DNA from: Euonymus europaeus
Taxonomy: Eukaryota > Streptophyta > Magnoliopsida > Celastrales > Celastraceae
Reading direction: 5' to 3'
Assembly: GCA_963580455.1 (NCBI GenBank)
Contig: OY756970.1
Coordinates: 3,782,001 to 3,846,000 of the forward strand
Length of the DNA stretch: 64,000 nt
Part shown: one piece after another, positions 39,301 through 63,295 of the stretch
Layout: each line of letters begins with the position of its first letter
How positions within the stretch are numbered: position 1 is the stretch's first letter
Position numbers and translations under genes: made by a program
The notes under the pieces: model-generated
Databases searched by the model: none
Told to the model about the DNA's origin: nothing
Seen by the model: only the letters and a program-made list of their open reading frames with translations

Positions 39301-42300
39301 AGTGCGGCCCTTCTGATCAGCACGATACAATCCGGACAACAACTCATGAATATGAGATAAATTCTTCTTACTCGCATACAAGGAATCAAGATACTCCCAC
39401 AATTCCTTGAGTGAATCACAATGACCCACCATATCATCCACCGAAGGATCCATAGTATTTTGAATCATATTATATAGTTTGTCATCGTCCTTCATCCACT
39501 GAGCCTTAGCTGTGAGCTCGGTTGGAGGATCATCGGTTAGATGTTTCTCCATGTCAATACCCGATAAATACCGGCGAATGATGCGCTTCCATTGTTGATA
39601 ATTTGAACCATTCAATTTTCGATCTGTAATCCGGGCGGTTGCAGCAACTATTTCAGTAGTAACCTTCTTCTCACCAATCTCTGCCATTTTTATTCAAGAA
39701 ATGCAGAAACAAAATAAATATCACAGTACCACTTAAACAAGGCAGACAGGTAAGCCAAAAAACACAAGCCACACTCGGCCAGCCTCTTTGGAAACCAAAA
39801 AAGTCAGCAGTCTCTCTGGAATCACATATACTCAGCCTGACTTCTCTGGAAACACAGAACCAGAGCAGAAAACACACTAGGAAAGGCAGAAATCGCCGGA
39901 AAAAGCTGACTGAAAATAACTGGAGAGCAGTCGCACAAGGCACTGCTCGAGATAGCCAAAAATCACCGGAAATGTCTCCACAGAAATCACCGGAATCCAC
40001 AGAAGTCACCGGAATCCACAGAAGTCACCGGAAATGTCCCTGCCCAGACCTGACGACCACTCGCGCGACACCAGCAGACCTCGCGCTCGGTCGCGCGACA
40101 CCAAACGACTCGCACGACACCAGCAGACCTCGGGCTCTGTCGCGCGACACCAGACGACGCGCGGGACACCAGCAGACCTCGGGCTCTGTCGCGCGACACC
40201 AGACGACGCGCGCGACACCAAACTGCGCTGCTTGCTCCTCCGGAAGGGTCGCGCGACACCAAACTGGTGTTCCGGAACGTACTGCGCTGCTCGCAACTCG
40301 TCCTTCCGATCGACTGATTCAAGCTCACTGGAACTTACAAACTTACGGCTCCGATACCATGTTAATCGGATGGCTATCGGATGCAGCAGCTAGGTTTTCA
40401 TGTTTCGGTTTAATTTTCTTCACACCTTTGTATTACTATTCAATAAGACTATATACAAGCCTAAACACATAGACATAAGACTAGAATACCCTTAGGTATT
40501 CTAACATTTATCATTGGGGCACATATTCGCTTTTGAAACAGCTCTCGTGCACAAAGCTTCCACAGTGGGCAGGAATAGGCTAGATGTATGCAGCCTTCCC
40601 CCACATAATATGCAGAGAGGTTGTTTAGCTTTTCCTATAACTTCCTTATTTCTAGAATTGTTTTTTATATTTACATGTACTTCTTTTCTTCAGCTATTCA
40701 GGTTTTCAATCGGGGACAGAAATTGAATTTTCTTCTAGAGCTATGGGGCAATTGGGACTTCAGGATGTGGGAGAAGGCAGTGTAAAAATCAGGTTCATTT
40801 TCGTGGATGGATGAGAATTGTACCTTAGGCATAGATAATAACACTGAGATAGGTGGATTCAGTATCTTTTCTTGTTACTGATACTATTAATGGCAGTTAT
40901 TTTGCAGACTTTATGAAGGTAGAATAGCACAAGGTTCGCTTAGAGGAACTCCAGTTATCTTTAAGGTAGTCCTTTAGTGAAATAATAAAGGATGTGATTC
41001 ATTTAATAGAATAATTCAATTGTTTTTCGAAATTTTTTGAGTTGTTAAATAGCATTAAATTTGCAAAAGAGCAAGCATTGCTACATTTCCAATATATAAT
41101 TTCATTTTTGATAATATATTAAGCTTTTTCCCTTTTACATTGATAGGTATATATGTTTCAATTAGAGGAATGCACTTATATGATTCGCTTGTTCCTTTAG
41201 TTATTAGTTGTGGGGCTTTGGCTTTACTTTCTAGTCTATGCTACGCTATGCAGTAGCAGTTGCTTTTAGCTTTTGCATTTGTATTCATACTTGAAATTTT
41301 TGAAGAGAAATGTTGTGCGCTAATTTGAGTCCTGCAGAACTTTACTGTTACGTGATTTTGATTTGGATTTGGTTCAGTTCTTGAACACAATATAATCCTC
41401 TCAAGCATAACATACTTAGCCATGAAGGTTTTCCCTGGACGACGAGCTGGTGGAAATGATGCTGATATGATGGCCGCAAATGAGCTAAGTGCTCATGTTT
41501 TCCTTCAGGTAAAACAAAAAAGTATTTTAAAGTGCCAACGGGATATGAGTTATATTTTGGCTATTCTCTCTTGCTTCTGTCCAGCAGTATTTTAGTTTCT
41601 CGGGGTGAATGACTCATACTCATTGATGCACTCTGTTATCTTTCAGGGCAGTTCAAAAGGTATCTGTCAGAACCTTGTGCTTCTTCTTGGTGGGTTTGAG
41701 ACAAAAACTGGAGAGCAGGTTTATCATAAAATTTCGTTATTGCCATATTTTTAAAGTACAAGGAATTATCTGTATTGGTAAATTTAAATTGAACCAAAAG
41801 TAATGCTCTACAGTGGCTTGCTTTCCGTAAAGATGGGAAGTACAGTGCAGCAGATTATGCGAAGGTTACCAGTGAAAACATGACAAAAAGTCGTTCGCTC
41901 AGACAGAACTATTGGAATCATTTTGATCATGAGCAAGCAATTAAACGCAGAAGCTTTTTTGTTATGAAGCTATTTCGGGGTGTGATGAGTGGTCTGGCTT
42001 ACTTGCATGACAATGAAAGATTACACCAGAGTCTTGGACCATCATCTATTGTTCTCAAGTGAGTTCCATAGTTATCTCCTTAGCTGTTATATTTCTGAAC
42101 TTTTGTATTAATGTCGTGCATATGGTTTCTCATTTGTGTCTTGCTCAAAAGAAAAAAAGGTTGGTTATTTGTGTCGATAAAAGTTTACAAGATAGTATTC
42201 TTGTCAATGCCAGTACAATGACTGAGAGAGATGCTGCTTACTTAGTTCCACAACTTCGGGATCTGGCCTTTTCAGCTGATATTAGGTACAGTTTTGTTCC

Positions 42301-45300
42301 TTTTATATTTATTTAAACTGACCATATTTCAGGATACAGTTCAGTGAGGAACAATATCTCTTTACACGGCCTTACGTTTTTTATAGGATATTAATGAGTG
42401 TAGGGAAGTCGTTTATTCTATTGGCATCATGATAATGCATAGTTGTTTTGTGGTTTGCCTCCATATGTGATTTTGAAAACAATAACATAACTACAACAAT
42501 AGAATTGCTCATTCACTTGTAAAAGATAAGTGGTGATTCATATATGATATTTGTTTGATAAAGCTGTTCAATGTATGACGATATGCCCCATTTTTTTGTA
42601 TACACGCCATTCCTCAGATGGCCAATGTGGCTGATTTTGTAGCTAAGTTATGTCATTTAATGAGCAAACTGCAAATACTTGAGAGAAGATTCTTGTACAT
42701 TTAATCTTCTGACTAACCTTCCATGAGGACCTCAGAACTCGGTACAACTCCCTTATTGAAGTGAGGATCACCTGTGTATATGGAGGCGATTGAGAGCTGA
42801 CCCCTAACCGGCTTAGGGATCTCTTGGCAAAACTACTCATCCATCTTAAATTTGTATTCTAGGCACCATCTTGTTCCTAGAGAGTATGCTAACCAGCAAA
42901 CTGATTAAAGTATCTTCAATTCTTTCAACTTGAAATACCAAAAAGGTATTAGGGCATGTGAAATTAACTTCAGAAGCTAGTCTAAGTTTTGGAGAACCAT
43001 AGAAATAAACTAAAAATCTTTTTGGCATTTTATCATAAGGTAGACGGAGAGAAAACTAAGATGAGACTCCATCATAGTTGAAGTTATCTTGCTTTTGTTT
43101 CTATATTCTTTTCTTCTAGCTATCAAAGCCTGGCTATATTTTTAGTTTATCTTGTTTGAGAACATAGAACCTCTCGGAGGTTGTGCCACATGGGATCCAC
43201 TCCTGTTGACTAAATCCTGGATGGAAGCAGCTACTTGCAAACCAAATATTGAAAAGTATGTAATTGGATGTTATCATATTTTTTAGGTGGTTATCAAATC
43301 ATTGGTTTATTAGAAGTTGGAAGTGCACTCAAATTTCATAAAGCTCCCTGACACACACCTTAAGAAAAGAGAAGAAAGACTCAACGCATAATTTTTTTTG
43401 TGTATAAAGGGCTTTTCTTTCCCATTAACTGGTGTGGCTTGTCAGGTATTCATATTTAGAAGAAGGTCTTGGAACATTGTCAGAGGGACTCTGGAGAAGG
43501 GCATCCACTGCTGGTGCCTTTACTCCCATGGAGAAGAGAGCATTTGGAATAGCTGATGACATGTAATTTTTGAGTTCATTTTCATCAATGCGCGATTGGG
43601 ATTTTTAGGCTATTCAATTCAGTATGTGGCCTTTCTTCTCTTGTCACAGATATGAAGCAGGTCTTCTTTTAGCGTATTTCGCTTTTGTTCCATTTTGTGA
43701 AGCAGGCACAATGGACAGCCTTTCTTTGCAAGTAAGTTTGTTTGTTTCTGATTTTCCATCAATTCTAGCATAGATTTTATCATCATATAGGTGAGGCTGT
43801 CAAGTTTTGAAGCAAAGTAAATAAAGAAATATATAGATGAGAATATGTAAAGAAGTTCACCAATAACCCTTTTCTTTGACTGTATGAACTTTCAGAGGCT
43901 CTTGGAGAGCACTTTCCGACTTGATCTAGAAGCAACAAGAGAGTAAGTTGTCAGTTATATGCCACAAATGATGTATTCGTCACTTTGATGATATAGTTTT
44001 TCCTCTAGCTATACCATCTAAAAAGGATGAACTTCAGTTTCCAGTAACATATATTCATGAAATATTGAGATCAGGTTGTAGAATATTTTCTTTTTCTGGC
44101 TTGTTTGATTCTGGACATTTTCCCTTCATCATAACTTATTTATTGCATGGGACACGTTGTAGGCTTTTAAGCAATCTTTCTGTAGGGAGTGAACATGTTG
44201 ATATACAATAGGAAAATTTTGATGGATGGAATTATATGTAGAAGTGAACATGTTGGATTAGGTTTGGCATTCTGCTAATAAGTTTGTGGACAAACTGTCA
44301 TAGTTGCTGTAATATATTAATTATACTTACGTTTGGTAGTATGAGAGTGTGACATTGTATCAACTCGTATTCGTCTCTAATTCTTAAAGTGGATTGTATC
44401 CTTTCATTTAATTTCCTGCTTTTGAAAAATATTTTTGGCAGTCTTTAATGGTCGGCTCTCTTTTGCTGTCTCCTTTATGTTTTTTGCCCCTTTAATTTAT
44501 GTGCAGGTATTGTCTAGCAGATGACCGTTTACTCGAAGCTGTCAAGTTTCTTGATCTTGGTGATGGTGCTGGTTGGGAATTACTTCAGGTATGACTACTT
44601 TTGTTATCTTGTTGACCTAAGCACTTTTCCTCACTTGTCTTGAATATCATGGAAAGATGGAACATTCTACCTCAAAGCCAAGAAAGTGACTCATAAATGG
44701 TAGTAGTAACATCTGACATAACATTAAAATATTTTTCATTACAATTTTCATCCAAAGGAGATATGAATAAGTATAAGACGATCAGCCACTCCGTCCCTAG
44801 TTCATAGCTGATAAATTTGCATTCTCAACATTGCCGAGTATTATCAACTCACTCTTGTCTAGATTCGCCTTAGATTTTTCGCTACTTCAAAGAAAACTTA
44901 GTTTTTGATAGACCTCCACCAGTCTATTAAACAATAAAAGATGAGTCATTATTCCCCCTTTCTCTCCTGATATATTCTAAAGCATGCAGTCAACTATACA
45001 ACCTTCCACCATGTTTCTCCGCCTTCATCACAGAACAAGAGGACTTCTTCCTTCACCAAAATGCTATATTTTTGTTTATGAAGGGGGAAGGAGATGTTAC
45101 TCACTTCATGATTCACTTAGTCCAATAATCTACAAACGCCGTTCTATTTGTCAAAGCAAAAAGAAAGTATTTTCATGGTTGACCGACACTTTATTGTGTG
45201 TGTGAACTTATCCCAAGTGTAGGGTATCGGCAAGTAGTATATTTCGGAAGTCCGGAGTCGAGTCTCGAGGAGGAAGTGTTTAGGATTCTTGGAAGTGAAT

Positions 45301-48300
45301 GCAAATGTAATGTATTTATGCAATTTCACAATGAATAACACATATCACACATGAAAATAAATTTGGTCCGATTCAATCGGTAATTTGATTTTCAATTCAA
45401 GCAAGTAACGAAATTGATTCAATTCAAACAATTAATTAAAAAACTCTAGTCCTAATCCATCATGGTAGATAATCCTCTCTCATGCTCAATGTATCCAAAT
45501 TCAATCATGCGAGCACAATTAAATCAAAAGCATTCAATTAATGAAATTGGACTTGGGTTTATGATGACTTCGATACAAGGGATGTTGGTTAGAAAATCTT
45601 CAAGATTTAACGATAAATGCTTAGAATACAACACACCAAATAATATGGATTAATATTCCCCTTTGGACTTGGCCTAATCGTCAAACTAGATTTACACTCA
45701 AATCTCTCCAACATAACAACAGCATGCTCATTTCTAAACACCCAAGTCACAACTATCAAGAAATCAAAATAAGAACTCCATAACAATGGATTCCATGGCA
45801 TACATTGAGCAATCAAGATTCAGATCTACCACCTAGGATTAGGAACTAGAGATAAGGACTACTCACTCATGATCATATCAATAAACATGCTCATATATAT
45901 CAAAATCGGTATGCTTACAGAAATTTTGGATGAAAAACTGAACAAAAGCTTGAGAGAAGAAAATGCTGAAAAAGCTGCCTCTAATGGTGAATCCTCCCTT
46001 CCAACCCCAAAACTAGGGTTTTTACCCTTCACTTTCATGTTTAAGACCTATTCTATCCTTACAAATTCATTCCCCATTGGTTACAATCCATATTTCCCCA
46101 AAATGTCCTTCAAAAATTGATTTCCGGAATGCAGAATCGCGACCAGCGTCCGGACGGATTACACTTCCGTCCGGACGGATATTGAATCTGTCTCCTCCCA
46201 AGAGTAATCCATCCCGAGGGATTATTATCCGTCGGGATGGATCTGTCCGGACGGCCAAAAGTGGCGTCCGGACGGATTACTCTTGTTTGCTCTCTGCCTC
46301 CGTTTCTTTGTAACTTGTCCGGACGGCTTCTTCTTGTGTCTGGACGGACCTTCTTAAATTGATGCAAGACCTCCTTTTTCTTCTCTCTTCAAGTATTCCA
46401 ATGCCTCTTCTAATGATTTAACTCCATATGAGCCGTTTTCTGCAAGATTTAATGGCGACATTGTAAGAAGCTTAACAACAAGTTAAATGAATTATTAAAG
46501 CCTAAATACCCCATAATTCTATTATGAAAATCCCAATTACGAGGTATTATCACACCCCCCAACTTGAATGTTGCTAGTCTCTAGCAACACAAACAATGAA
46601 TTAAACTATATAATTTTTTTTTTTTTCAATACTTCGAACTCACTTTTATAGGAATCACGATTGCATTTCGCACATGCAATAAGCCTTTAAACCCCTAGGT
46701 CACCCCAGTGGACAAGTTGTAGTCTTGTGAGGGTTTATCAGAGCGATACCCACAAACACTCTACAAGGGATCCATACCTACTTTAAACATGCAATTTAAG
46801 ATTCTTAAGGTCAAATGAGCAAGGTGCAAAGCTAATTTCCCAATTTCCTAATTTTCAACACTAATAAGATCCTGGTTAAGCCAATCATAATCCACTTTAG
46901 AGCAATCTAGAAAGTTTAGTAATAAGGAAAATATAAGTGCAACCAAGCAAACCTCTATTGAAATTCACACAAGTATGATTTCGTTGTGAACCCTTTTAGT
47001 GTTCCCAAATTCCCAACCCCTTGGCATAATTTAAACATAAATGATTGTAATGGGTAATTGACCCACACAATTAGAGTGAAATGCAAGTGTTTATGAAAGA
47101 TAGTTTAGGGTGGACATAGCTTTGTGAAAGGAATTACCTACAAATGTAACAATAGCATTCATCAATAAGCTTGATTACCTTCAAATTGAACTCATCACTA
47201 GGAACAATGGTTTGAAAAGAAGCGGAAGTGAAGGTAGGCTATTTCGGATCTAGGTAATATGTCACAAAATTGAGTTCTCAAATTGAGCTACTCATTCATT
47301 ACCTCCAAATTGATTTTTTTTCTTTTCTTTGCACCTTCATACCAGTTGTTCATTTGTTTGGTGTTGCTTTTCATAACTTGAAAACTTTAGGGCTAGCATA
47401 TTCTCTCTTTTTTTTTTACATATGATTGAACTTATGCATAACCCTCATCGATTCTGGTAATGAGTATCACTTAGAATTTGGATTTAAAATCTCGACTCAA
47501 TCTTGTGATGAAATATTAGGGAGTTGGCTCACTCAATTTTTCTGGTTCTCACAAGTTTTTTTTTTAATATATTGGAGCAAAAGATATCTTACACATGAAT
47601 TAGGGTAGGCTCAATATTTGTCCCAATGAGTACGTTCAATCCGAGAGTCACAAGCAAAAGATGAATGACTATATATTACATTTCTCAGCAATCAATTGTA
47701 ATGCTTCAAAGCTATTGAAAACATGCTTATGGAATAATCAATGAAAGAATAAAAGAATGAAATGAATCCCATAATTTATTAATGAAGAATGGCTCAAAGA
47801 ATGTATGAGTAGTAGTTATTTCAAGCAAAAGGGAGTCACAACTTCAATCATTTAAGTGTTTCAATCTTACAAGGCTCATTTAACCACACATTTGATATGA
47901 AAATATGTCTAAATTGCATCCCACATGAATTAATCATGATCACACCATTTCCTCACAAGCAATGATTCATAAGAAATTGAGACTATCTACTTTACACTTG
48001 CAAATTTTTGACCAATAAGGAGAAATTGAAATGTAAAAAGTATTTACGAATCCTTTGGTTTCCTTCCCTTCCCTCTTAAGTTAATCTACTCCTTTTCACA
48101 ATCTTTTTTTTCTTCTTTAATATCATTGACATTCAATCACTTAAGGACAATTATAAGGATTTTCATACCATACTTTTCACAATGGTTTGAATTGAAGAAC
48201 CAAGAACACAATCTGAAAAATTAGACAAACCATAGGTCCAAATATAGTTCAATCATTCAAATAATACAAGAAAGATTAGTTCTGAAAGTGAGGTCAAAAG

Positions 48301-51300
48301 TAGCAGAAATAAACACCTCATAGTAGTACATCAGTTCAGTTTTAGACTAACAAAGAATATGATAACATTCGAATACTCCAAATCTAAACTGTGCATCTAT
48401 GGCCCCGGTGGTGGCGGTGCAAACTGAGAAGGTGGCTACTGAGGCCAATCAGGATGTCTAGTCACTAGAAACTGAAGCATAGAGTGCATGTCTTGCTGCC
48501 TCCTCTCTATCTGTGCAAACTGCTCCATCTGCTGTTGCTCAAAACTCTCAAATGTCCACTGAAGGCTAGCAACATTAGTCTGTAAATTCTGCATCATACC
48601 CAGTACCTGCTGGTAATCTACCTGACCTGCAGATGAGCTCTCTCCTAGCTCAGCATCCTCCTCATCCCGGGCTGGGGCAAATTTCTTTTTTCTACTGGCC
48701 CACGATTTTCTCATGCTCTTATGGTCAATAGGCCCAAATGAATTGGTGGCTGTGTCTAGATCCACCGTAGATCTAACCCCAGCCCTTAATATTAGTGCAG
48801 TAATCAATGCTCCAAAAAGAATGCTAGCTACAGCCTCGAAATGTTTCTTATGACATTCAAATAATTGATTCATTATGAAATCGGACATGTCAATATACTT
48901 CCTAGAAGCAATAGCATATAGAAGACGAGCCCTTTCCACACTCACATCTGCAGTCCTACCCTGTGGGAGTATATTATAACAAGATGACTCATGTAAAGGT
49001 ACATACACCCACTTCAATAGCCCCTTCTTCAACCCTTTATTTCGCCACTCAGAACCAGGTACAAACAAAGTTTGCATAATTGTACCCCAGTTCTCACTCT
49101 CATCCCCGTATCGGAATTCTTCTGCATATGAACTAGTTAGGGGTAAATTCAAAATTCTCCGTATACCATTTTCCGAGATTATCACCTCCCTTCCTCTCAC
49201 CATGGACTAACCTCTTATCACCCCCCTCCTCATATGAGTCAATGATATTGGCAAAGAATTCTCTCACAAGATTTTTATGACCTGATTTTTATGACATGGT
49301 CCCGTAAATTCAACCAACCCTTGCCATTGACGCGTTAAAATTCTGGGTTTCCAATTCAAGCAATCATACTTAACCTCCGTGGTTTCCTGAAAATCATCTA
49401 ATTTCCATCGACGCTCAATAACTACAGGCTTTTTCTTCCAGTAACCCTCATAGTCTTCCTGGGCTACTTGACTCACAAATGAAGGAGGGGGTGGTGAGTT
49501 CGTCCTCCCTAGTAGTGGCAATTCTAGCACGTTTTGGAGGCATTGGTGAAACTCAAAAATTTCGACACTTAATCCTCAATCAACTTCCAAAAATAAAAGA
49601 AACAACTCCCCAACAATATATATGGTCAATCTCCACCAACAATTTCACCAAAATTAAGTTCAAAACCTCACCATAATTCTACACAACAACAATCTCACAA
49701 AAATACTCGAACAACAAACACCACAAAATCAACACAAACACCACAATGCCCACTCCTAGGCCTCCATTCAGTTCAATCCACAAAGAATAATCAAGAATCA
49801 ATCAAAAAGTGGAAATGATTCAAAATTTTACCTAGAACCCTAAATGGGTTTGAGTTGGAGAAGATGAAGCCCCAAAATCATGAAACCCTCATTGATTCTT
49901 GTTGGAATGGAGTGTGGGATGGGATTTTCTTAGGTTAGATGGTGATTTGGAGAGAAATTTGAGAGGAAAAATGAGGAAAGGAACCGGCAAGAGAGAGAGG
50001 GTCGTCTGAGAGAGAGAAGCAAGAGAGAGAGAGAAATCATGTGTGTTTTCTGGGTTTTAATCCAGAAAACACACAACCGTCCGGACGGATAACAACCCAT
50101 CCGGACGGATTGGTCTTTGGTTGAGGCAGAGCCTCACCCACTTATTCCGCCCGGACAACCCACTGGGGTCGTCCGGACGATTTGGTCCTGCCTCACCCGG
50201 TTCATCGGTCCGGACGTCCCAATGGAGTTTCCGGGCGCGTAAGTCCACAGGTGAGGCAGGCCTCACCTGTCAATTTTTTCAATTTTCAGGTTTTTTTTAA
50301 AAAATAAATAAATACAATCATTCACATTTATTCCACACCCCCTAACTTAAACAAGACGGGTTGTTATCCGTCCGGACGTTGGTTAGTTTATTCAAAAATA
50401 AAAACTTAAAAATAGACAGGTGAGGCACTGCCTCACCTGTAGGCATGCGCGTCCGGACGAGCCATTGGGCTGTCTGGACAGGTTAATTGGGTGAGGCAAT
50501 CTGCCTCACCCATAGACCATTCCGTCCGGACAGGTTGTTATCCGTCCGGACAGTTCTGTGTTTTCTGGATTAAAACCCAGAAAACACACATGATTTCTCT
50601 CTCTCAGCCGGCCCTCTCTCTCTTGCCGGTTCCTTTCCTCATTTTTCCTCTCAAATTTCTCTCCAAATCACCATCTAACCTAAGAAAATCTCATCCCACA
50701 CTCCATTCCAACAAGAATCAAGGAGGATTTCATGATTTTGGGGCTTCATCTTCTCCAACTCAAACCCATTTTGGGTTCTAGGTAAAATTTTGAATCCTTT
50801 CCACTTTTTGATTGATTCTTGATTATTCTTTGTAGATTGAACTGAATGGAGGCCTAGGAGTGGGCATTGTGGTGTTTGTGTTGATTTTGTGGTGTTTGTT
50901 GTTGGAGTATTTTTGTGAGATTGTTGTTGTGTAGAATTATGGTGAGGTTTTGGACTTAATTTTGGTGAAATTGTTGGTGGAGATAGACCATATATATTGT
51001 TGGGGACCATATATATTGTTGGGGAGTTGTTTCTTTTATTTTTGGAAGTTGATTGAGGATTAAGTGTTGAAATTTTTGAGTTTCACCAATGCCTCCAAAA
51101 CGTGCTAGAATTGCCACAACTAGGGAGGACGAACTCATCACCCCTCCTTCATTTGTGAGTCAAGTAGCCCAGGAAGACTATGAGGGTTACTGGAAGAAAA
51201 AGCCTGTAGTTATTGAGCGTCGATGGAAATTAGATGATTTCCAGGAAACCACGGAGGTTAAGTATGATTGCTTGAATTTGAAATCTAGAATTTTAGCGCT

Positions 51301-54300
51301 CAATGGCAAGGGTTGGTTGAATTTACGGGACCATGTCATAAAAATCTTGTGAGAGAATTCTTTGCCAATATCATTGACTCATCTGAGGAGGGGGATGATA
51401 AGAGGTTAGTATCCATGGTGAGAGGAAGAGAGGTGATAATCTCTGAAAATGGTATACTGAGAATTTTGAATTTACCCCTAACTAGTTCAAATGCAGAAGA
51501 ATTCCGATACGGGGATGAGAGAGAACTGGGGTACAATTATGCGAACTTTGTTTGTACCTAGTTCTGAGTGGCGAAATAAAGGGTTGAAGAAGGGGCTATT
51601 GAAGTGGGTGTATGTACCTTTACATGAGTCATCTTGTTATAATATACTCCCACAGGATAGGACTGCAGATGTGAGTGTGGAAAGGGCTCGTCTTCTATAT
51701 GCTATTGCTTCTGGGAAGTATATTGACATGTCCGATTTCATAATGAATCAATTATTTGAATGTCATAAGAAACATTTCGAGGCTGTAGCTAGCATTCCTT
51801 TTGGAGCATTGATTACTGCACTAATATTGAGGGCTGGGGTTAGATCTACGGTGGATCTAGACACAACCACCAATTCATTTGGGCCTATTGACCATAAGAG
51901 CATGGAAAAATCGTGGGCCAGTAGAAAGAAGAAATTTGCCCCAACCCGGGATGAGGAGAATGCTGAGCTAGGAGAGAGCTCATCTGCAAGTCAGGTAGAT
52001 TACCAGCAGGTACTGGGTATGATGCAGAATTTACAGACTGATGTTACTAGCCTTCAGTGGACATTTGAGAGTTTTGAGCAACAGCAGATGGAGCAGTTTG
52101 CACAGATAGAGAGGAGGCAGCAAGACATGCACTCTATGCTTCAGTTTCTAGTGACTAGACATCCTGATTGGCCTCAGCAGCCACCTTCTCAGTTTGCACC
52201 GTCACCACCGGAGCCATAGATGCACAGTTTAGATTTGGAGTATTCGAATGTTATCATATTCTTTGTTAGTCTAAAACTGAACTGATGTACTACTAGGAGG
52301 TGTTTATTTCTGCTATTTTTGACCTCACTTTCACGACTAATCTTTCTTATATTATTTGAATGATTGAACTGTATTTGGACCTATGGTTTGTCTAATTTTT
52401 CAGATTGTGTTCTTGGTTCTTCAATTCAAACCATTGTGAAGAGTATGGTATGAAAATCCTTATAATTGTCATTAAGTGATTGAATGCCAATGATATTAAA
52501 GAAGAAAAAAAAAGATTGTGAAAAGGAGTAGATTGACTTAAGAGGGGAGGGAAGGAAACCAAAGGATTCGTAAATACTTTTTACATTTCAATTTCTCCTT
52601 CTTGGTCAAAAATTTGCAAGTGTAAAGTAGATGGTCTCAATTTCTTATGAATCATTGCTTGTGAGTAAATGGTGTGATCATGATTAATTCATGTGGGATG
52701 CAATTTAGACATATTTTCATATCAAATGTGTGGTTAAGTGAGCCTTGTAAGATTGTCTCACCCACTTATTCCGTCCGGACAACCCACTGGGGTCGTCCGG
52801 ATGATTTGGTCTTTGGGTGAGGCAGATTGTCTCACTCGGTTCATCCGTCCGGACGTCCCAATGGATCGTCCGGAAGCGTAAATCCACAGTGGCCTCACCT
52901 GTCAATTTTTTTCAATTTTCAGGTTTTTTTTAAAATAAATAAATACAATCATTCACATTTATTCCACACCCCCCAGCTTAAACACGACAATGTCCTCAAT
53001 GTCAAAAACCAAATAGAGGTTAATGTGAAGGATTGTATGCACTCAATTTATTATCCCCTGTACACAAATTTTTACCACAATAAATGTGGACGGGATCCTC
53101 AAGATCCCGAGATTCGACTAATTCTTGAAAATTTTCAAGGTATGGCTTCAACCGTTGGGCATTGACCTTAAATTTTTTTCCATTCCTAGGGTCCTCGATC
53201 TCAATGCTTCCATGTTGAAAAATAGTTCGAACCATGAAAGGTCCGGTCCACTTGGTACGTAACTTCCCGAGAAAGAGATGCAACCGAGAGTTATAAAGTA
53301 GTACCTTTTGGCCAACATGGAACACTTTTCGCACAATGTGTCGATCATGGTACATCTTCATCTTTTGTTTGGCAATTTTTGCATTTTCAATGGCATCATT
53401 CTGAAGCTCTTCAATTTCTTGAAGTTGGAGTTTCCTATGCCCCCTACTTCATCCGGTGGGTCATTTAGATTGCGAGCAGCCCAATAAGCTCTATGTTCTA
53501 ACTCAACCGGTAAATGACAAGCCTTACCATAAACAAGTCTGTAAGGTGACATTCCAAGAGAGGTTTTAAAGGTGGTATGGTAAGCCCACAAAGCATACAC
53601 CAATTTCAGTGACCAATCTTTGCGATTGGGGTTCACTGTTTTTTCCAAAATTCGTTTAACCTCTCTATTGGCTAATTCTACTTGACCACCTGTTTGGGGG
53701 TGGTATGGTGTTCCCACTTTGTGTATAACCCTATATTTTTTCATCAATGTTCGAACCGGGTTATTGCAAAAATGAGAACCACCATCACTGATTATGGCAC
53801 GAGGCATTCCAAACCTAGAAAAGATGTGATGTTTCAAAATTTTGATCGCAACTTTGTGATCATTGGTCCTAGAAGGGATAGCCTCAACCCACTTGGACAC
53901 ATAGTCCACACCAATCAAAATATATAGGTACCCAAAAGAACTAGTAAACGGCCCCATAAAATCAATTGCCCAACAATCAAAAATTTCAAGAATTGTAATG
54001 GGATTAAGGGGCATCATATCACGTTTAGTCAAATTCCCTAGTCTTTGGCACCTATCACATGATACACAATATGTATGAACATCTCTATGCAAAGAAGGCC
54101 AATATAAACCACATTGAAGAATTTTAGTGGCAGTCTTTCGGGAAGAGAAATGTCCTCTACAAGCATAAGAATGACAAAATGCCATGACACTTTGGAACTC
54201 ATGGTCAATGATACATCGCCTAATGATTTGGTCTGAGTAATATTTGAATAAGTAGGGGTCATCCCAAAAGAAACTACGCACATTGTGCAGAAACTTGGTT

Positions 54301-57300
54301 CTATCCAATGGGTTGGCATTTTCCCAGAAACCAAGAAATTGGCAATGTCAGCATACCAATGAGTCAAGCTAGAGGAGATGGCATTCACATGAAACAGTTG
54401 TTCATCTGGAAAATGTTCGTTAATGGGAAGTCCATGATCAAAAAGTTCTTGTCCAGGAAGTCTAGAGAGGTGGTCAGCTACCACATTTTCAACTCGTTTC
54501 TTATCCTTAATCTCTAAATCAAATTCCTCAAGGAGAAGGATCCATCTCAACAATCGACGCTTAGCATCCGCTTTTGAGAGCAAATACTTGAGAGCCGCAT
54601 GATCTATAAAAATTATGACTTTAGACCCAACCAAGTAAGACCGAAACTTATCTAAGGCAAAGACTACGGCTAGCAACTCTTTCGGTTGTGGTGTAGTTCA
54701 CTTGAGCTTCGTTGAGGGTCTTACTAGCATAGTAAATAACATGAGCTTGTTTCTCTCTTCTTTGCCCTAAAACAGCCCCTATCGCTACATCACTAGCATT
54801 ACACATAAGTTCAAAGGGTAAAGCCCAATCCGGGGCTTGCATAATTGGGGCAGTGATGAGGGCTTCTTTCAAATGATCAAAAAATTGTTGGCAAGGTGTT
54901 GTCCATTCAAATGGAACATCAAGGGCTAGAAGGTTTGACAAAGGCTTAGCTATGGCACACCCTTGACACATCTAGGGGAAGGGAGTTTTTGGATTAATTC
55001 AATTTTTGACTTGTCCACTTCAATCCCCTTTGACGACACAATATGCCCAAGCACTATCCCCTGGGTGACCATGAAATGACATTTTTCCCAATTGAACACT
55101 AAATTGCTCTCCTCACATCTTTGCAATACTTGTGCCAAATGACCTAGACATTGCTCATAAGTGTCTCCATACACAGAAAAATTATCCATAAAAACCTCGA
55201 CAATTTTCTCAACCATGTCACTGAATATGCTCATCATACATCTCTGAAAAGTGGCAGGAGCATTGCACAACCCAAAAGGCATACGCCGATAAGCATAGGT
55301 CCCAAAGGGACAGGTGAAAGTGGTTTTGTCTTGATCCTCTAAGGCAATTTCATTTGGTTGTACTCAAAATATCCATCAAGAAAACAGTAGTAAGCCCTCC
55401 CCGCGACTCTCTCAAGCACTTGGTCAAGAAATGGTAAAGGAAAATGGTCCTTCCTAGTTACCAAATTGAGTCGACGATAGTCAATGCACATTCTCCACCC
55501 AGTTTGAATCCGAGTGGGTATCAACTCATTCTTGTCATTCTTTACTATCGTGACTCCTGATTTCTTAGGAACCACTTGGGTGAGAGATACCCATTTGGAG
55601 TCAGTGATTGGGTAAATGATCCCAGCATCAAGTAACTTGAGTACTTCCCCCCTAACCACTTCTTTCATGTTTGGGTTAAGTCTCCTTTGCATTTGTCGGA
55701 CTGGTTTAGCCTCCTCTTCCATATATATACGGTGTGTACACATAAGAGGGTTAATTCCTTTCAAGTCCGCAATTATCCAACCAATGGCTCCTCTAAACTT
55801 CTTCAAAATCTCTAAAAGTTGTGTTTCTTGAGTAGAGGTGAGCAAAGATGAGATCACTACTGGGTAGGACTCTTGCTCTCCTAAAAACACATACTTCAAC
55901 TCACTTGGTAAAGGTTTCCTATCCGGTGTTGGCGGATGCACTTGAGATGATTCAGTCTTAATGGGAGAAGGCTCCAATTCCTCTGTTGGAGGGATCCAAC
56001 GTCCAACTCCATGAATAGGTAAAAACTCTAAAGCTTCCTTCATATCATCCTCCGCCATTAAAGATTGGCTAGCTATTTCACCCAAGGCTAGCACGCTCTC
56101 AACTGAATCCCTTGCAAGTGTCAATTCTAGATTTTTCTCAACATAAGGTTTGAACCCAATCTATTTCTCGGATGTCCTCACACTCTCCCACTCCCTTAGC
56201 CACATTGAAAATGTTCATCTTTACAGTCATATTTCCAAAGGAAATTTGCATCACTCCATTCCTACAATTTATTAAAGCATTCGCAGTTACTAAGAAAGGT
56301 CTACCCAATATGACCGGAATAGATTGACTAAAGCTCGGGAGTGGTTGTGTATCTAACACAATAAAATCAACCGGGAAGTAAAATTTGTCCACTTGGACCA
56401 ACACATCTTCAACAATCCCCCTAGGCACCTTAATGGATCTATCGGCTAATTGCAAGGTGATCTTAGTGGGTTTCAACTCACCTAACCCCAATTGTTGATA
56501 GACTGTGTAGGGAAGGAGGTTCACACTAGCTCCTAAGTCAAGCAAAGCTTGCTCAATTCTATGGTCACCTATGACACATGCAATAGTAGGGCACCCAGGA
56601 TCTTTGTACTTAGGAGGAGTGGACGATTGGATAATGGAACTAGCTTGTTCCACTATGAAAGCATTCTCCTTAACATTCAATCTTCTCTTGACTGTACAAA
56701 GGCCTTTGAGAAACTTGGCATAGAAAAGCACTTGCTTAATGGCATCTAAGAGGGGGATATTGATCTTGACTTGTTTGAATAAATCAAACATTTCCAAATT
56801 AAGTGCCTCATTGGCCTTTTTTCCTAGCCTTTGAGGAAAAGGGATCCTAGGAATATACTCATCTTCTTTCCTAAGAGTCGACTTCTCATCACTTGGTTTT
56901 CCTTTGTCCTTTTCTCTTTCTTCATCTCTCTTTTCCTCATCGTCAACTAAAGGATTGGTGGGCTTGTCTCACAATGCACTATCGCGAATTTCATCCTCAC
57001 CTCCTAACTTATTTACCTCTCCATTGGCTCTATCTACCACTCTCCCACTCCTTAATGCAACAGGCCTCAAAGCGGTGATGGCTTGAACTTGCCCATTCAC
57101 ACCATCACTTGAGGTTTGACATTGGTTGGCTTGCTTAGAGGGGTTTGGGAATGGTTGAGATGGAAATTTTCCTTTCTCAATAGAGGTCAAAGCTTGGGTA
57201 ACCTTGGTCATTTGGGTCCTAAGATCCTCCATAGCCCTATTGGTTTGTTCTTGCCACTTTGATGCTTTTTTATTTTCACTCATTTGGGCATTCATGAACA

Positions 57301-60300
57301 TGTTAAGAGTATCTTCAATAGATCTCTTAGGTGGTGGGATATATGGTTGTTGGGGTATAGGCATACCTTGAGAAGGAAGTGGTACTTGTTGGGGTGGATT
57401 GGGGAATTGTGGAAATTGAGAGTTTCCATCATTCCTCCACCTAGTATTTTGTTGGTTCTTCCATCCGGAATTCCCCCAAGAAGGGTTGTTTCCTTTATTC
57501 TGGTAAGGGTAGGACTTTTGAAAATTATTCTCATACATTTCTTGTCCAAACAACACTTCCTTGCAAGCTGGAAGTGATTGACAATCATCTGTCCTATGAT
57601 CCCTAGAATCACATAGAGTACAACTTGAGTCCTCCCCCACTACCAAATGCACTGGTGCACTAGACTTGAAAGTTTCGAGTTTCCTAGACATGTGTGCTAA
57701 TTGGGATTTCAAGTTTTCAGTTTCACTCACCATCGATTTCCCACTAGATGATGGAGAAGGCTCCCATGATTTGGACGCCTCTGCAAACTCTAAACTCTCT
57801 AGTTGCCTAGTTGCAATGGCTAGTTTGGCTTTCAAATCATCTTGGTCACTTGACACAAACTTGTCATGAGCGGAAGGAATGGGGTCATGTCTAGACACTG
57901 GAGGAGGTTCCCAAGACTTAGACTTTTTCGCTAAGCTATCAAAGAATACAAAAGCTTTATCAGCATCCCTATCATAAAAATCACCTTGAACCATAGTGGA
58001 CACTAGACGCTTCAGAGAAGAAGTCAAAGAACCATGGAAGAAATTCACCAATTGATACTTCTCAAAACCATGATGAGGGCACATAAAAAGTAGGTCTTTG
58101 AACCTTTCCCATGCTTGAAAAAAAGTTCCATGATCTTTACAAGAAAAGTTCATGATTTGCTTTTGAAGCGAAATTGTTCGATGGGTAGGGAAAAACTTCT
58201 TAAGGAATTCCTCTTGCATTACCCTCCATGTAGCAATGGATTGGGGCCGCAAAGTTTCGAACCATCTTTTGGCATGGTCTTTCAAAGAAAATGGAAACAA
58301 CTTCAACTTCAAAACTTCCTGACTACAAGCAGCATCCCCAAATGTCACACACACAGATTCAAATTCATGCACATGAGAATATGGATTTTCCGATTCCATA
58401 CCATGGTACTTGGGAATCATTTGAAACATGTTAGACTTAAGATGCACATTCTGTTGATTCCTTGGCAATATGATGCATGATGGTTGTGCTTGACTTGAAG
58501 GATGGGTGAGTTGTCGCAAAGTGCGATTCTCATGTATTTGAACTTGGTCCAAGGGAGGAAAATTGAGATTATCCCCCCCTTTGATGATTTTGTGGCCCAT
58601 GATGCATATGAGGATGATCATATTGCAATTGCACTTGCGGTGGGAGCTCAACAGGAGGGGGCACATATGGTTGCACAATGGATTGAGGTAACATGTTAAC
58701 ATTAGGTTGTGAAGGGTCATCATCCACAGGTTGTGGATTACGAGCAAGTCTCTCAAGTTGAGCCTGTTGAGCATTAATTAATTGAAGCAACATATTCACA
58801 TCAATATCTCCCTCTCGAGGGCGATCATTCACACTAGCATTCTCGGACTTAGCATCATCTACTCCCTCTGCTAAACTAGAATTCCCTCTAGGCATAGACA
58901 TGATGAAATATGATCGAGGGAAATCAAGAAATACACCAACACCAAGATATCAATCAATAAATAGGGTATCAATGAGAGGCAATCAATCAAGAATAGCGAT
59001 AATGGCACAAATCTCTCGCACTCAACGTTTCCACTACCACAACAGCAAACAAATGGCATCCATCGCCCACAGGACCTAAGTTAATCTCGTCCTCCAATTC
59101 TTCTCCTCATTTATTTCTTTATTATTTTTTTAAATGATGGACAGTAATAATAAAAAGGTATGAAGTCACCCTTGAAGCGAGCCCAAAAGTGCCTCCTATT
59201 GTCGTATGGTGAAGAGCATCTACAAGCATCTACAAATCCACCCGATTGTCCTTCTTACACGCCTCCCCGACAACGGCGCCAAAAACTTGACCGACACTTT
59301 ATTGTGTGTGAATTTACCCCAAGTGTAGGGTATCGGCAAGTAGTATATTCCGGAAGTCCGGAGTCGAGTCTCGAGGAAGAAGTATTTAGGATTCTTGGAA
59401 GTGAATGCAAATGTAATGTACTTATGCAATTTCACAATGAATAACACATATCACACATGAAAATAAATTTGGTCCGATTCAATCGGTAATTTGATTTTCA
59501 ATTCAAGCAAGTAACGAAATCGATTCAATTCAAACAATTAATCAAAGAACTCTAGTCCTAATCCATCATGGTAGATAATCCTCTCTCATGCTCAATGTAC
59601 CCAAATTCAATCATGCAAGCACAATTAAATCAAAAGCATTCAATTAATGAAATTGGACTTGGGTTTATGATGACTTCGATACAAGTGATGTTGGTTAGAA
59701 AATCTTCAAGATTTAACGATAAATGCTTGGAATACAACACACCAAATAATATGGATTAATATTCCCCTTTGGGCTTGGCCTAATCGTCAAACTAGATTTA
59801 CACTCAAAATCTCTCCAACATAACAACAACATACTCATTTCTAAACACCCAAGTCACAACTATCAATAAATCAAAATAAGAACTCCATAACAATGGATTC
59901 CATGGCATACATTGAGCAATCAAGATTCAGATTTACCACCTAGGATTGAATTTGTCTCCTCCCAAGAGTAATCCGTCCCGACGGATTATTATCCGACGGG
60001 ACGGATCCGTCCGGACGGCCTAAAGTGGCGTCTGAACGGATTACTCTTGTTTGCTCTCTGCCTCCGTTTTTTTGTAACTTGTCCGGACGGCTTCTTCTTG
60101 TGTCCGGACTGACCTTCTTAAATTGATGCAAGACCCCCTTTTCCTTCTCCCTTCAAGTGTTCCAATGCCTCTTCTAATGATTTAACTCCATATGAGCCGT
60201 TTTCTGCAAGATTTAATGGAGACATGGTAAGAAGCTTAACAACAAGTTAAATGAATTATTAAAGCCTAAATATCCCATAGTTCTATTATGAAAATCCCAA

Positions 60301-61389
60301 TTACGAGGTATTATCAATGGTCAAAGGCATTCTCCATCTCACGTTGACATCCACCCTTTTTCTTTGAATGACATCCACCCTCATTAGCCATCAACCCACC
60401 CAGTGTCCAAAAGTTTGTCTTCATTAGCTTCCACTTTCCTGAGTTTGCAAGCCAACACCAGACATCAATTTTGTACACATGTTCAGCTAGCCTTGCCCTA
60501 TAGTTTAAGAATTTGCATTTTGTAAACCACAGTGTCCTAGATCTTTACTCCAAGCTACCACATCCATTTCAAATTCAATGAGTTTTCCTCATGTATACTT
60601 CCCCTCACTAATTTGCAATCTCTCGACGTTTAACGGTTCAATCATATTGTTAAGATTAGTTACTTTGTCATTAAACTCAATAAGTTAACTTGTTGGATTG
60701 GGATTAGACGCAACACTAAGGTTACTCTCACACAAGGCGCTCACTTGGGGCAACTACAAACAGGGGTTTAAATTGTGGAAACTAAGTTTAAACCTAAGAC
60801 CTTCCGTTCCAATACCATTTTAAGATTAATTAGTTTGACATTCTACCCAAGAAATTAACTTGTTGGATTGAGGCTTTTCACATTATTTATACATATTCTA
60901 ACACATATGAGGTGTTTCGCATTATTTATACATATTCTCAAGCATGGAATACCACTTAGCTCCAATAAATTCGACCGCTTTCTAAATTCAACCACTGTTG
61001 AAAGCGGATCTAGATGTTATGTGGTTAATATGATCAGTTTGTCCAAGAGAAAATTAGATTAGGTTTTTTGTTCTATCCCGAAGCCTTGAATTCAGTGGGA
61101 ATCCTGTATGTTGTGAATTAAAATATTCTTTATTTTGGTCTGGTTAGAATTAAGTTTCATGTGTACTCCTGAATATTTGAATAGGATAACTGCATTTTTC
61201 TTTTCTTTATTTGATATGGTTTCTGCCATAGTCGCCAGTTATTCTCAGCATTTTAGTCATTGTTTCCGATGCCTTGCTCTACAACATTCTAATGACTGGC
61301 TGCAGGCAATGCTGAATCCTGACTTTAGAAAGCGGCCAGTTGCTGAAGCTATTCTCAAGCATCGATTTGTGACTGGCGCTGTTCTTTAA
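33335..61389 (+). CDS. Plastid-targeted protein kinase-like protein (probable pseudokinase), complete, 12 exons over 28 kb
   Basis: Exons: 33335-33549, 40694-40792, 40908-40965, 41428-41508, 41647-41718, 41814-42058, 42214-42285, 43446-43562, 43650-43731, 43896-43942, 44507-44588 and 61306-61389. The total of 1254 nt gives 417 residues, with all junctions in phase and GT-AG. The first 60 residues are Ser/Arg-rich and poor in acids, like a chloroplast transit peptide. The kinase-like fold follows: [22 protein letters not shown] (candidate lysine near residue 124), [89 protein letters not shown] and the closing [15 protein letters not shown]. The HRD motif is HQS (246-248) and DFG is DLA (273-275), so catalysis is doubtful. 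I recognise a conserved plant family but know no name. Introns 1 and 11 host a Copia and a Gypsy element; splicing must remove about 7.1 and 16.7 kb. Confidence 0.9.
33770..34110 (+). pseudogene. LINE zf-RVT fragment in intron 1 of the kinase-like gene
   Basis: In two frames the stretch reads [17 protein letters not shown], then a FFTWK motif in the shifted frame, then [20 protein letters not shown]. This resembles the zf-RVT zinc-binding region at the end of plant LINE ORF2 (usual form NRCxLC...DHxLLHC). It is short, frameshifted and non-functional. Confidence 0.5.
35344..35490 (-). repeat. 3' LTR of the young Copia
   Basis: It runs from TGTTAATCGG to TATTCTAACA on the plus strand and is identical by eye to 40360-40506. 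Confidence 0.97.
35498..37435 (-). CDS. Copia reverse transcriptase and RNase H (young element)
   Basis: This long frame of 645 codons holds the C-terminal half of the Copia polyprotein. It starts with a Ser/Pro-rich linker, then the RT domain: [50 protein letters not shown], the catalytic YVDD (in [11 protein letters not shown]) and [13 protein letters not shown]. RNase H follows with [38 protein letters not shown] and [11 protein letters not shown], and it ends just before the LTR. Catalytic residues look intact. The upstream boundary is a one-base shift in a T-run near 37428 that separates it from integrase, so the nominal start codon is not a biological start. Confidence 0.93.
   Translation of the reverse strand: MLPFFESTPFVSEPSVPVYAPEDEFLVYHTSTSDNSSESSRPPITKTFSRHTVFPPVIPTVNTPMTSTSDLDALPLPASSSQDPPSPTASSLDLPIALRKGKRSCTYPISSFVSYNSLSLISQSLVSSLNSVSVPKSVSQALSHSSWRKAMLDEMAALEENSTWRLVSLPVGKHAIGCKWVFTVKVNPDGSVARLKARLVAKGYAQIYGVDYSETFSPVAKLASIRLFISLAATYHWPLYQLDIKNAFLHGDLTEEVYMEQPPGFVAQGESAKVCFLQKSLYGLKQSPRAWFGRFSEVVFEFGLWRSAHDHSVFYRNSACGCILLVVYVDDIVITGSDSAGIIALKSFLRTKFQTKDLGSLRYFLGIEVYRSKKGIFLSQRKYVLDILEETGLTTAKPCDAPMIPNVKLTDEEGDLLPNPERYRRLVGKLNYLTVTRPDIAFPVSVVSQFMSSPRTSHWDAVVHILKYLKSAPARGVVFGDQGHSRIEGFCDADWAGCPIDRRSTTGYCVFVGGNLVSWKSKKQSVVARSSAESEYRAMAHSSCELMWVHHLLREIGIKDSIPIQLWCDNQAAIHIASNPVFHERTKHIEVDCHFVREKIQKGLICVQHIKTGEQIADIFTKALSGNRVAYICNKLGMIDIYAPT
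37419..38621 (-). CDS. Copia protease end and integrase (young element)
   Basis: The frame follows directly after the protease active site [11 protein letters not shown], whose DSG lies just upstream, between a TAG stop (about 38649) and the methionine used here. The GAG-pre-integrase zinc finger reads [15 protein letters not shown] and CEACQFAKH. The integrase core shows [16 protein letters not shown] and [12 protein letters not shown], the D-D-E triad of Copia integrases. The C-terminal part ([13 protein letters not shown]) is the usual link to RT. A T-run shift ends this frame. Confidence 0.92.
   Translation of the reverse strand: MASNTSILSSFQSSPMFPSVILPDGSSVPVLGSGTASPTSSLSLSSVLCLPHFPLNLMSVSKLTRALNCSVHFFPDSCVFQDLVTKKIIGRGRESNGLYVLVADSPPMPRSLASTSYLSSYQLHCQFGHPSFNVLKRLCPSLRSVSKLECEACQFAKHHRVSYLPRVNKWAASPFELIHSDIWGPCPIVSKSGFRYFVTFVDDFSRVTWLYLMKNRVELYSIFCAFYAEIKTQHNASIRVLQSDNAKEYFSHSLSSFLTANGVVHQSSCIVTPQQNGVAERKNRHLMEVARALLFSMNVSKVFWADAVNTACYLINRMPSSVLNGHIPYSTLFPSRPLFSLPPHIFGCVCFVQDVRPQVSKLDPRSLKCLFLGYSRHQKGYRCFSPALGRYLVSADVTFF
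38839..39687 (-). CDS. Copia gag (young element)
   Basis: This is the capsid-nucleocapsid precursor. ATG at 39687 follows the untranslated leader. The N-terminal MAEIGEKK, the [17 protein letters not shown] block and the [14 protein letters not shown] block are typical of UBN2-type Copia gag. A Gly/Arg-rich stretch precedes the zinc knuckle [12 protein letters not shown], where an extra base in an A-run near 38890 shifts the frame so that the last cysteine of the CCHC is read out of frame. The downstream continuation in the other frame reaches a TAG before protease. Confidence 0.92.
   Translation of the reverse strand: MAEIGEKKVTTEIVAATARITDRKLNGSNYQQWKRIIRRYLSGIDMEKHLTDDPPTELTAKAQWMKDDDKLYNMIQNTMDPSVDDMVGHCDSLKELWEYLDSLYASKKNLSHIHELLSGLYRADQKGRTLVDYYTTFKRMFEEMKTLYPITADVKKMQEQQEEIIVQCFLAGLDSTYDVPRSQLLTDTDLSSLAEAFSRLRMVCKDSTRESPGGSSVGETSALIGWSTQGGRDGGGRGGRNGGRDGGGRGGPRVCFYCGEQGHLKKELLEVAWETDYSSASS
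39965..40260. repeat. Tandem repeats in the Copia 5' leader
   Basis: Two arrays are adjacent: about 18-bp units ending in AGTCACCGGAA(A/T) at 39965-40040, and a GC-rich unit of about 49 bp (GCGCGACACCAGCAGACCTC) with starts near 40070, 40119 and 40168, extending to about 40260. They lie between the primer-binding site and gag. Confidence 0.9.
40360..40506 (-). repeat. 5' LTR of the young Copia
   Basis: Identical by eye to 35344-35490. The primer-binding site follows directly on the minus strand (40347-40359). Confidence 0.97.
45180..46552 (-). repeat. 3' LTR of the Gypsy element (full-length form)
   Basis: 1373 bp. It retains a 343-bp segment (45841-46183) absent from the other LTR and carries five copies of the GTCCGGACGG palindrome between 46147 and 46330. 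Confidence 0.93.
46553..47862. other. 3' non-coding region of the Gypsy element
   Basis: AT-rich sequence between the polypurine tract beside the 3' LTR and the left arm of the inverted repeat. I see no coding function. Confidence 0.6.
47863..50285 (-). repeat. Left arm of the 2.2-kb inverted duplication in the Gypsy element
   Basis: It starts at CAATCTTACAAGGCTCATTTA, the reverse complement of the sequence ending at 52756. Matching continues through the accessory ORF and leader to about 50112 at high identity, then through GC-rich palindromic motifs to the centre near 50340. Confidence 0.9.
48436..49544 (-). pseudogene. Accessory ORF, sense copy (plant retrotransposon aORF), broken
   Basis: The first part (start near 49544, MPPKRARI...) includes [18 protein letters not shown] and [16 protein letters not shown] shift near 49270 breaks the frame. 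The second part (49203-48436) includes [57 protein letters not shown] and a Gln-rich coiled-coil-like tail [20 protein letters not shown]. It ends at TAG where the other copy has CAG. It resembles the putative plant transposon domain encoded by extra ORFs of Athila/Tat elements. Its role is unknown. Confidence 0.8.
50430..52756 (+). repeat. Right arm of the 2.2-kb inverted duplication
   Basis: It mirrors the left arm in opposite orientation and ends GCCTTGTAAGATTG at 52756. The GC-rich block that immediately follows (52757-52975) is a direct repeat of 50136-50345. Confidence 0.9.
51089..52219 (+). pseudogene. Accessory ORF, antisense copy, broken
   Basis: It is the inverted counterpart of 48436-49544, antisense to gag-pol. 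ATG 51089 begins [16 protein letters not shown]. Frames shift near 51330 (where a frame with [20 protein letters not shown] takes over) and near 51500. The last frame runs to the natural end PSPPEP at 52219 and so preserves a longer C-terminus than the sense copy. This copy has distinct lesions, so both arms decayed independently after duplication. Antisense accessory ORFs are known in Tat-lineage elements, so either orientation could be ancestral. Confidence 0.8.
52757..52975. repeat. GC-rich block, direct copy of 50136-50345
   Basis: Both begin CTCACCCACTTATTCCG and run through CCCACTGGGGTCGTCCGGA and CACATTTATTCCACACCCCC. They bracket the right arm of the inverted duplication. Confidence 0.9.
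53020..54308 (-). pseudogene. Gypsy integrase
   Basis: The HHCC zinc finger ([12 protein letters not shown]..., CGHF-like region, [11 protein letters not shown]) is followed by the core with [14 protein letters not shown] and the glutamate in [13 protein letters not shown]. The C-terminal domain ([29 protein letters not shown]) lies in a second frame from 53361 down to 53020, so there is a frameshift near 53360. The catalytic D-D-E residues appear present, but the frame is broken relative to RNase H upstream (near 54309). Confidence 0.9.
54309..54971 (-). pseudogene. Gypsy RNase H and RT connection
   Basis: The region reads [36 protein letters not shown] and [14 protein letters not shown], then, after a frame change near 54660, [35 protein letters not shown] and [16 protein letters not shown], ending in [10 protein letters not shown]. 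These are standard RNase H landmarks of plant Gypsy elements, here in two frames. Confidence 0.9.
54950..56124 (-). pseudogene. Gypsy reverse transcriptase
   Basis: The N-terminal part includes [39 protein letters not shown] and [15 protein letters not shown]. After a break near 55335 the frame resumes with [16 protein letters not shown] and FMDNFSVYG. The last is the catalytic box, usually FMDD in this clade, with the second aspartate changed to asparagine. Together with the frameshift this predicts an inactive enzyme. Confidence 0.9.
56138..56797 (-). pseudogene. Gypsy aspartic protease region
   Basis: The landmark [20 protein letters not shown] carries the active site as DLGAS, a form common in Athila-type elements. 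[16 protein letters not shown] follows. It lies between gag and RT and is separated from gag by frame changes near 56800-56970. Confidence 0.85.
56969..58901 (-). pseudogene. Gypsy gag
   Basis: The N-terminus starts near 58901 (MSMPRGNSS...) in one frame and shifts near 58600 into the long frame that runs to 56969. The capsid region includes [38 protein letters not shown] and [20 protein letters not shown], typical of the retrotransposon gag domain. A single zinc knuckle [14 protein letters not shown] is followed by a Gln/Pro/Asn-rich tail. One frameshift near the start makes it a defective copy. Confidence 0.9.
59263..59280 (-). other. Primer-binding site of the Gypsy element (tRNA-Asp type)
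   Basis: On the minus strand TGGCGCCGTTGTCGGGGA lies 7 nt after the LTR terminus. It fits the 3' end of plant tRNA-Asp apart from one position and supports Athila/Tat affiliation. Confidence 0.85.
59288..60316 (-). repeat. 5' LTR of the Gypsy element (deleted form)
   Basis: 1029 bp. It joins CCTAGGATT directly to GAATTTGTCTCC, lacking the 343 bp present at 45841-46183. ATT microhomology at the joint suggests an end-joining or slippage deletion. ATGGT duplication follows at 60317. Confidence 0.93.
60317..61305. other. Rest of intron 11 of the kinase-like gene
   Basis: AT-rich intronic sequence with two related phrases around AAGATTA(A)TTAGTT and GAAATTAACTTGTTGGATTG (near 60650-60700 and 60820-60880). 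It ends in GACTGGCTGCAG, the acceptor of the last exon. Confidence 0.5.
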
Positions 61390-63036: not shown

Positions 63037-63295
63037 TACCTCTTTCGAAATCACGAAACATCACTGTTGCACCAAGTAATTTGAACCTCAAACTTGACAT
63101 CTCAACATTCTCTTTGACCATTTCTCCTCACTCTTCTTTCCTTCAAAATAGGTGATTTTGTGGTCTATTTGACCCTCCTACACATAATCTACCACAAAAA
63201 CTTCGTGAGACTTATTAGCTTTTATACCTTTCTGTGACTTCAATATTATTATCTTCATGCATGAACTGTAAAATACAACCTTGACATTACAAATC

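Follow-up and report, generated by a model that had tools for sequence, protein, structure and literature searches.

The stretch analysed here, called the window below, comprises 64,000 nucleotides of Euonymus europaeus (GenBank assembly GCA_963580455.1, contig OY756970.1, positions 3,782,001 to 3,846,000 of the forward strand), and it contains a long terminal repeat (LTR) retrotransposon, which we file as Athila-type, whose region between pol and the 3' LTR is present twice, once in each orientation. This region carries an accessory open reading frame (aORF), and the rearrangement is real, dated and unusual, in an element of a known kind. The element reads on the minus strand, and its parts in the sense direction are as follows.

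45180..60316, minus strand: the whole element, classed as Athila-type Ty3/gypsy from both LTRs (self-BLAST), target site duplication (TSD) and Pfam domains
59288..60316, minus strand: 5' LTR, about 340 nt shorter than the 3' LTR (a segment is missing)
59264..59281, minus strand: primer binding site (PBS), 6 nt past the CA end of the 5' LTR
56969..58774, minus strand: gag ORF of 601 aa, open, PF03732
53020..56968, minus strand: pol region in pieces across several reading frames, with protease, reverse transcriptase (RT), RNase H and integrase
52757..52988, minus strand: D2, the leader directly after pol, with palindromic modules and the internal polypurine tract (PPT)-like run AAGCTGGGGGGTGTGG; direct repeat of D1
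52750..52755, no strand: junction J1, CAATCT (sense), common to the leader linker and the outer arm end 47862-47867
50450..52755, plus strand: arm 2, the probable inverted copy, with the antisense aORF 51089-52219, broken, PF20167
50357..50358, no strand: junction J2, where D1-D2 similarity ends and the inverted copy starts
50180..50449, no strand: centre or loop, palindromic modules and AT-rich DNA; takes in the greater part of D1 and the inverted copy's inner end
50133..50357, minus strand: D1, the second leader copy, with the internal PPT-like run AAGTTAGGGGGTGTGG; runs on into arm 1
47862..50179, minus strand: arm 1, in the presumed original orientation, with the sense aORF 48436-49544, broken, PF20167
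45180..46552, minus strand: 3' LTR, with the terminal PPT TTCAAGTTGGGGGGTG just before it in the sense direction

The order in the sense direction is thus pol, D2, inverted arm (arm 2), centre, D1, arm 1 and 3' LTR, and the whole is flanked by an intact 5-bp TSD, ATGGT, at 45175-45179 and 60317-60321. When the window is compared with itself by BLASTN, the two arms appear as an inverted pair, 47862-50179 against 52755-50450, with 94.3% identity over 2342 columns (E=0), and chance is excluded as the source of this match. A sequence-only reading of the window had placed an inverted duplication at 47863..52756 with arms of 2.2 kb or more; the ends found here lie within one base of those limits (47862 and 52755) and the match spans 2.3 kb. 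In a global alignment the arms differ by 74 substitutions at 2282 ungapped sites, namely 49 transitions and 25 transversions, and by 10 indel events, including indels of 14, 17 and 19 nt. The same reading had described a short GC-rich centre. It is not uniformly GC-rich: the centre 50180-50449 has 43% GC against 40% in each arm, only its shoulders are GC-rich (50-bp bins up to 68% and 58%), and its core is AT-rich with 26% GC. Since the LTR-proximal aORF copy has the sense orientation, as in a sunflower Athila element, the pol-proximal arm is probably the inverted copy. A nested DNA transposon or a fold-back transposon was considered as the source of the arms and rejected, because, judged by eye, the arm ends have no separate target duplication, and the leader of the element itself forms one of the outer flanks.

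The leader D, about 230 bp long and absent from the sequence-only reading, is present twice in direct orientation. The palindromic modules of each copy are rich in TCCGGACG and GCCTCACC, and within the window these motifs are nearly confined to the element: counting both strands and overlaps, all 28 positions of TCCGGACG and 10 of the 11 of GCCTCACC fall inside it. Both inner arm ends lie within small palindromic modules. As for the junctions, at J1 the leader reads ...GGGTGAGA-CAATCT-TACAAGG... and arm 1 has ...GTTT-CAATCT-TACAAGG... at its outer end, so that 6 nt of microhomology are shared; at least 6 shared nt occurred at only 0.22% of 200,000 random inverted junctions (P=0.0022). Moreover, arm 2 keeps the leader linker as GGGTGAGG-CAATCT-GCCTCACC.

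The two LTRs provide a clock for the age of the rearrangement. Outside CpG the arms differ at 64/2205 sites and the LTRs at 28/961 (Fisher p=1.0), with a 95% interval of the arm-minus-LTR difference from -1.3 to +1.2 percentage points, while over all sites the values are 74/2282 and 38/1029 (p=0.53). The corresponding Kimura two-parameter (K2P) distances are 0.033±0.004 for the arms and 0.038±0.006 for the LTRs. Outside CpG, arms and LTRs have thus diverged to the same extent, which puts the duplication at or close to the round of reverse transcription from which this copy came; the arms are as old as the copy itself, to within about 45% of its age. As a separate observation on the LTRs, about 340 nt of the 3' LTR at 45841-46180 have no counterpart in the 5' LTR. 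The ends of this segment share GGATT-like bases and TCCGGACG palindromes lie inside it, and it was therefore probably lost from the 5' LTR.

The account that we favour, and hold to be somewhat probable, is a single Athila-type insertion in which two template switches, at or near reverse transcription, produced a second, inverted copy of the post-pol aORF region. Minus-strand cDNA starting in the 3' LTR would first be extended across the aORF and across D with its internal PPT, which yields arm 1 and D1. Immediately beyond D, and aided by the palindromic modules of the leader, the cDNA would depart from the RNA and copy the aORF region from minus-strand cDNA, yielding arm 2. On reaching the outer end, the cDNA, now terminating in AGATTG, would pair with the CAAUCU that lies in the RNA between the aORF and D; synthesis would thereby return to the RNA, copy D again as D2 and continue into pol. 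Since the cDNA would rejoin the RNA behind the point where it left, D would be duplicated directly. The sequence-only reading had likewise taken the structure most simply for a template-switch product of reverse transcription. The timing, the direct duplication of D and the 6-nt microhomology at J1 speak for this and make template switching likely, though they do not prove it over a replication-based switch soon after insertion.

Several observations weigh against this account. The ancestral CAATCT at J1 is not found in arm 1 itself, which lacks the linker AA, and for this reason we infer it from arm 2 and the similar linker of D2; at J2 there is no clear microhomology. The module at the inner end of arm 2 aligns to the D1 module at 76-79% and to the D2 module at 75-77%, in an alignment that skips about 58 bp of the leader of arm 1. 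Because the likeness to the D1 and D2 modules is just 75-79%, a single-template event, in which the cDNA folds back onto the leader itself, was rejected as insufficient alone. The simplest single-template account would need an ancestral leader that carried two paralogous sets of modules, and a later deletion of one set from arm 1. Moreover, D1 and D2 are more diverged than the arms, at 16/216 sites (p=0.006 against the arms, 0.025 against the LTRs), or 10/187 outside CpG (p=0.075 and 0.11, respectively), and within the inner 250 columns of the arm alignment 18/230 sites differ. This extra divergence may come from faster change of methylated, CpG-rich, hairpin-prone DNA, or from the paralogous module sets. 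The direction of these changes is judged from a single copy, and the divergence interval also permits an event after insertion.

Such an event is the main rival. In it a replication fork that had stalled or broken within the integrated element would have switched strand at the palindromic modules and returned by microhomology, through fold-back or microhomology-mediated template switching, and this would give the same order of D, inverted arm, D and arm. Fold-back inverted duplications have been described for yeast and human chromosomes (PMC7467729, PMC3907307, PMC10622511). In fact, when the inner 250 columns are left out, the arms become slightly less diverged than the LTRs, with 56/2052 against 38/1029 over all sites (p=0.15) and 49/1999 against 28/961 outside CpG (p=0.46). 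To leave arms and LTRs equally diverged, however, this switch would need to have followed soon after insertion, and chance would need to have placed its breakpoints in the stretch that separates pol from the 3' LTR; we regard it as possible but rather unlikely. Equal divergence would be expected as well if a master element already had the inverted arms, and template switching or conversion between them homogenised the arms at every round of reverse transcription; the greater divergence seen between D1 and D2 and at the inner ends of the arms would fit an older duplication. This inherited structure is improbable in our judgement, for it requires an arm homogenisation that spares D. Quite doubtful, too, is its extension to a hairpin-carrying Athila sublineage, in which the inverted aORF is inherited, the arms are kept alike by switching between them, and the family produces small interfering RNAs (siRNAs) against its own aORF region and is thereby self-limiting.

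Inverted duplications are, finally, a known failure mode of long-read libraries, and the structure could in that sense be an artefact of assembly, from a fold-back read or mis-joined haplotypes. The arm differences are nevertheless mutation-like in pattern, with their 49 transitions, 25 transversions and indels of 14, 17 and 19 nt, and lie at the level seen in the LTRs, and D is duplicated in direct orientation, all of which makes an artefact very improbable.

Neither aORF copy is intact. The sequence-only reading had reported the same aORF once in sense and once in antisense orientation, and the orientations and positions hold, but both copies are broken rather than intact ORFs. In arm 1 there is a frame change near the start (two tblastn frames) and an out-of-frame stretch around 49210-49288, while in arm 2 the aORF begins and finishes in one frame with the intervening stretch in another. 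The limits given for them, 48436-49544 and 51089-52219, agree with matches to a 385-aa PF20167 protein of Tripterygium wilfordii, since in tblastn these begin at 51089 in arm 2 and at about 49543 in arm 1. That selection has kept the two copies is not supported: both are broken, the aORF (29/1091 differences) is as diverged as the rest of the arm (27/960, inner part excluded), and in a 219-codon stretch common to both arms the 15 differences divide into 9, 4 and 2 at codon positions 1, 2 and 3, so that there is no third-position excess such as selection leaves.

As for the host element, the Pfam domains, the LTRs and the 5-bp TSD bear out its earlier description as Gypsy (Ty3/gypsy). Its domains follow the order gag (PF03732), protease (PF13650), RT (PF00078), RNase H (PF17919/PF17917) and integrase (PF17921, PF00665), the pol domains being detected in stop-to-stop frames and in pieces over several of them; the pol tail at 53020-53357 has no Pfam match and was assigned to pol by eye. 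In the present copy pol, like both aORFs, is split over frames. The RNase H matches represent one domain over two frames, followed by the zinc-binding domain of the integrase, and no further RNase H match, such as a second, archaeal-type one, was found in the scanned pol frames. Such a second RNase H marks the Tat clade (PMC6317226), and the ATHILA ORF-1 is reported in 16% of Athila elements (PMC6317226). In arm 1 a sense 3' aORF of this kind is found, with a PF20167 match of 64.5 bits. An extra PPT in the linker after pol is known from Athila4 and Calypso (PMC2829016), and here PPT-like runs closely like the terminal PPT lie in both D2 and D1. The PBS at 59264..59281 may be of the tRNA-Asp type, which its sequence and its spacing would fit; no tRNA gene was found within the window. 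In Diaspora and Calypso the PBS is complementary to tRNA-Asp and lies 5 bp past the LTR (PMC1142308). By structure and Pfam domains the element is filed as Athila-type: it resembles the Athila/Calypso lineage in the order gag-PR-RT-RH-INT (protease, RT, RNase H and integrase after gag), the one RNase H, the PBS, putatively of tRNA-Asp type, 5-6 nt past the LTR, the extra PPT in the post-pol linker and the sense 3' aORF with PF20167, and it differs in that the linker is inverted-duplicated, with leader and aORF each present twice and the aORFs head to head. Antisense within gag there is also a borderline Rfam match to snoR71 at 58065-58171 on the plus strand (42.2 bits against a gathering threshold of 40).

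A close counterpart is sunflower Athila 14, which has a sense 3' aORF of 487 aa with Transposase_32/PF20167 (PMC11728184). The Pfam domain, the post-pol position and the sense orientation are the same, whereas one PF20167 aORF is reported there and two broken copies, one of them inverted, are found here. In protein searches the arm 1 ORF matched none of 516 candidates at E<=0.001, and the arm 2 ORF matched one of 195 at E<=1, LOC119998837 of Tripterygium wilfordii (49% over 90%). The integrase matched 7874 of the 7960 scored candidates at E<=0.001, and among the 120 matches listed the rows named by species are mostly flowering plants, with one bacterial label. No relatives of the element were found in viral contigs, in bacterial and archaeal genome contigs or elsewhere in the window, and as these collections hold viral, bacterial and archaeal DNA, the contig negatives say little about plants. 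In literature surveyed by titles and the beginnings of abstracts we found no case of an LTR retrotransposon with a naturally arisen inverted duplication inside it, though one may be published.

The window as a whole reads as plant DNA, with its retroelements, a Phi_1 gene and integrase relatives named mostly from flowering plants. Outside the element there are Ty1/copia-type gag, integrase and RT in three ORFs at 35498-39687 on the minus strand (PF14223, PF00665, PF07727), a further RVT_2 fragment at 29581-30255 on the plus strand, and about 3 kb from the element an ORF at 63281-63892 on the plus strand with a Phosphate-induced protein 1 domain (PF04674). Two tandem arrays, one of a 98-bp unit in 4.4 copies (5032-5461) and the other of a degenerate 34-bp unit in 15.1 copies (6670-7187), are also present.

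The claim of the sequence-only reading that transcription through both arms gives a long hairpin is borne out as a folding prediction. The sense strand of 47862-52988 (5127 nt) has a predicted minimum free energy (MFE) of -4272 kcal/mol, against -1460 kcal/mol for one equal length of gag-pol, and in the predicted fold 2198 of the 2306 bases of arm 2 pair with arm 1 in register. There are 1065 perfect 21-nt windows common to both arms. By this prediction a transcript through both arms would likely fold into a hairpin of about 2.2 kb, in principle a good Dicer substrate, from which Dicer could make siRNAs matching the aORF region of relatives, and silencing of the family by such a hairpin is plausible.

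The locus shares with known hairpin silencers an inverted duplication of transposon coding sequence. For example, engineered Cen5-ATHILA5 hairpins in Arabidopsis, likewise made of inverted ATHILA internal sequence, gave 21- and 24-nt RNAs and brought non-CG methylation back on ATHILA5 elements in mutant plants (PMC11410651); being man-made and placed in mutant plants, they tell what such RNA can do and not whether the present locus is active. In maize Mu killer, a natural inverted duplication of a transposon coding region for which hairpin RNA was proposed, the long-hairpin model is disputed: in one study silencing is tied to short antisense transcripts, which silenced plants carry rather than a long hairpin, and a minor hairpin share is left possible (PMC3440606). 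Mu killer moreover concerns a DNA transposon whose silencing was shown genetically, whereas the element described here is an LTR retrotransposon whose silencing effect is hypothetical.

Natural hairpin loci are one way in which plants could begin to silence a transposon family, and the LTR clock shows that such a structure can form around the time when an individual retrotransposon copy is made, with the internal PPT and the palindromic leader marking where the enzyme may turn. Should the locus be transcribed, it would offer a natural experiment on the ability of one bad copy to silence its family; if it is not, it would be a well-dated example of a complex template switch.

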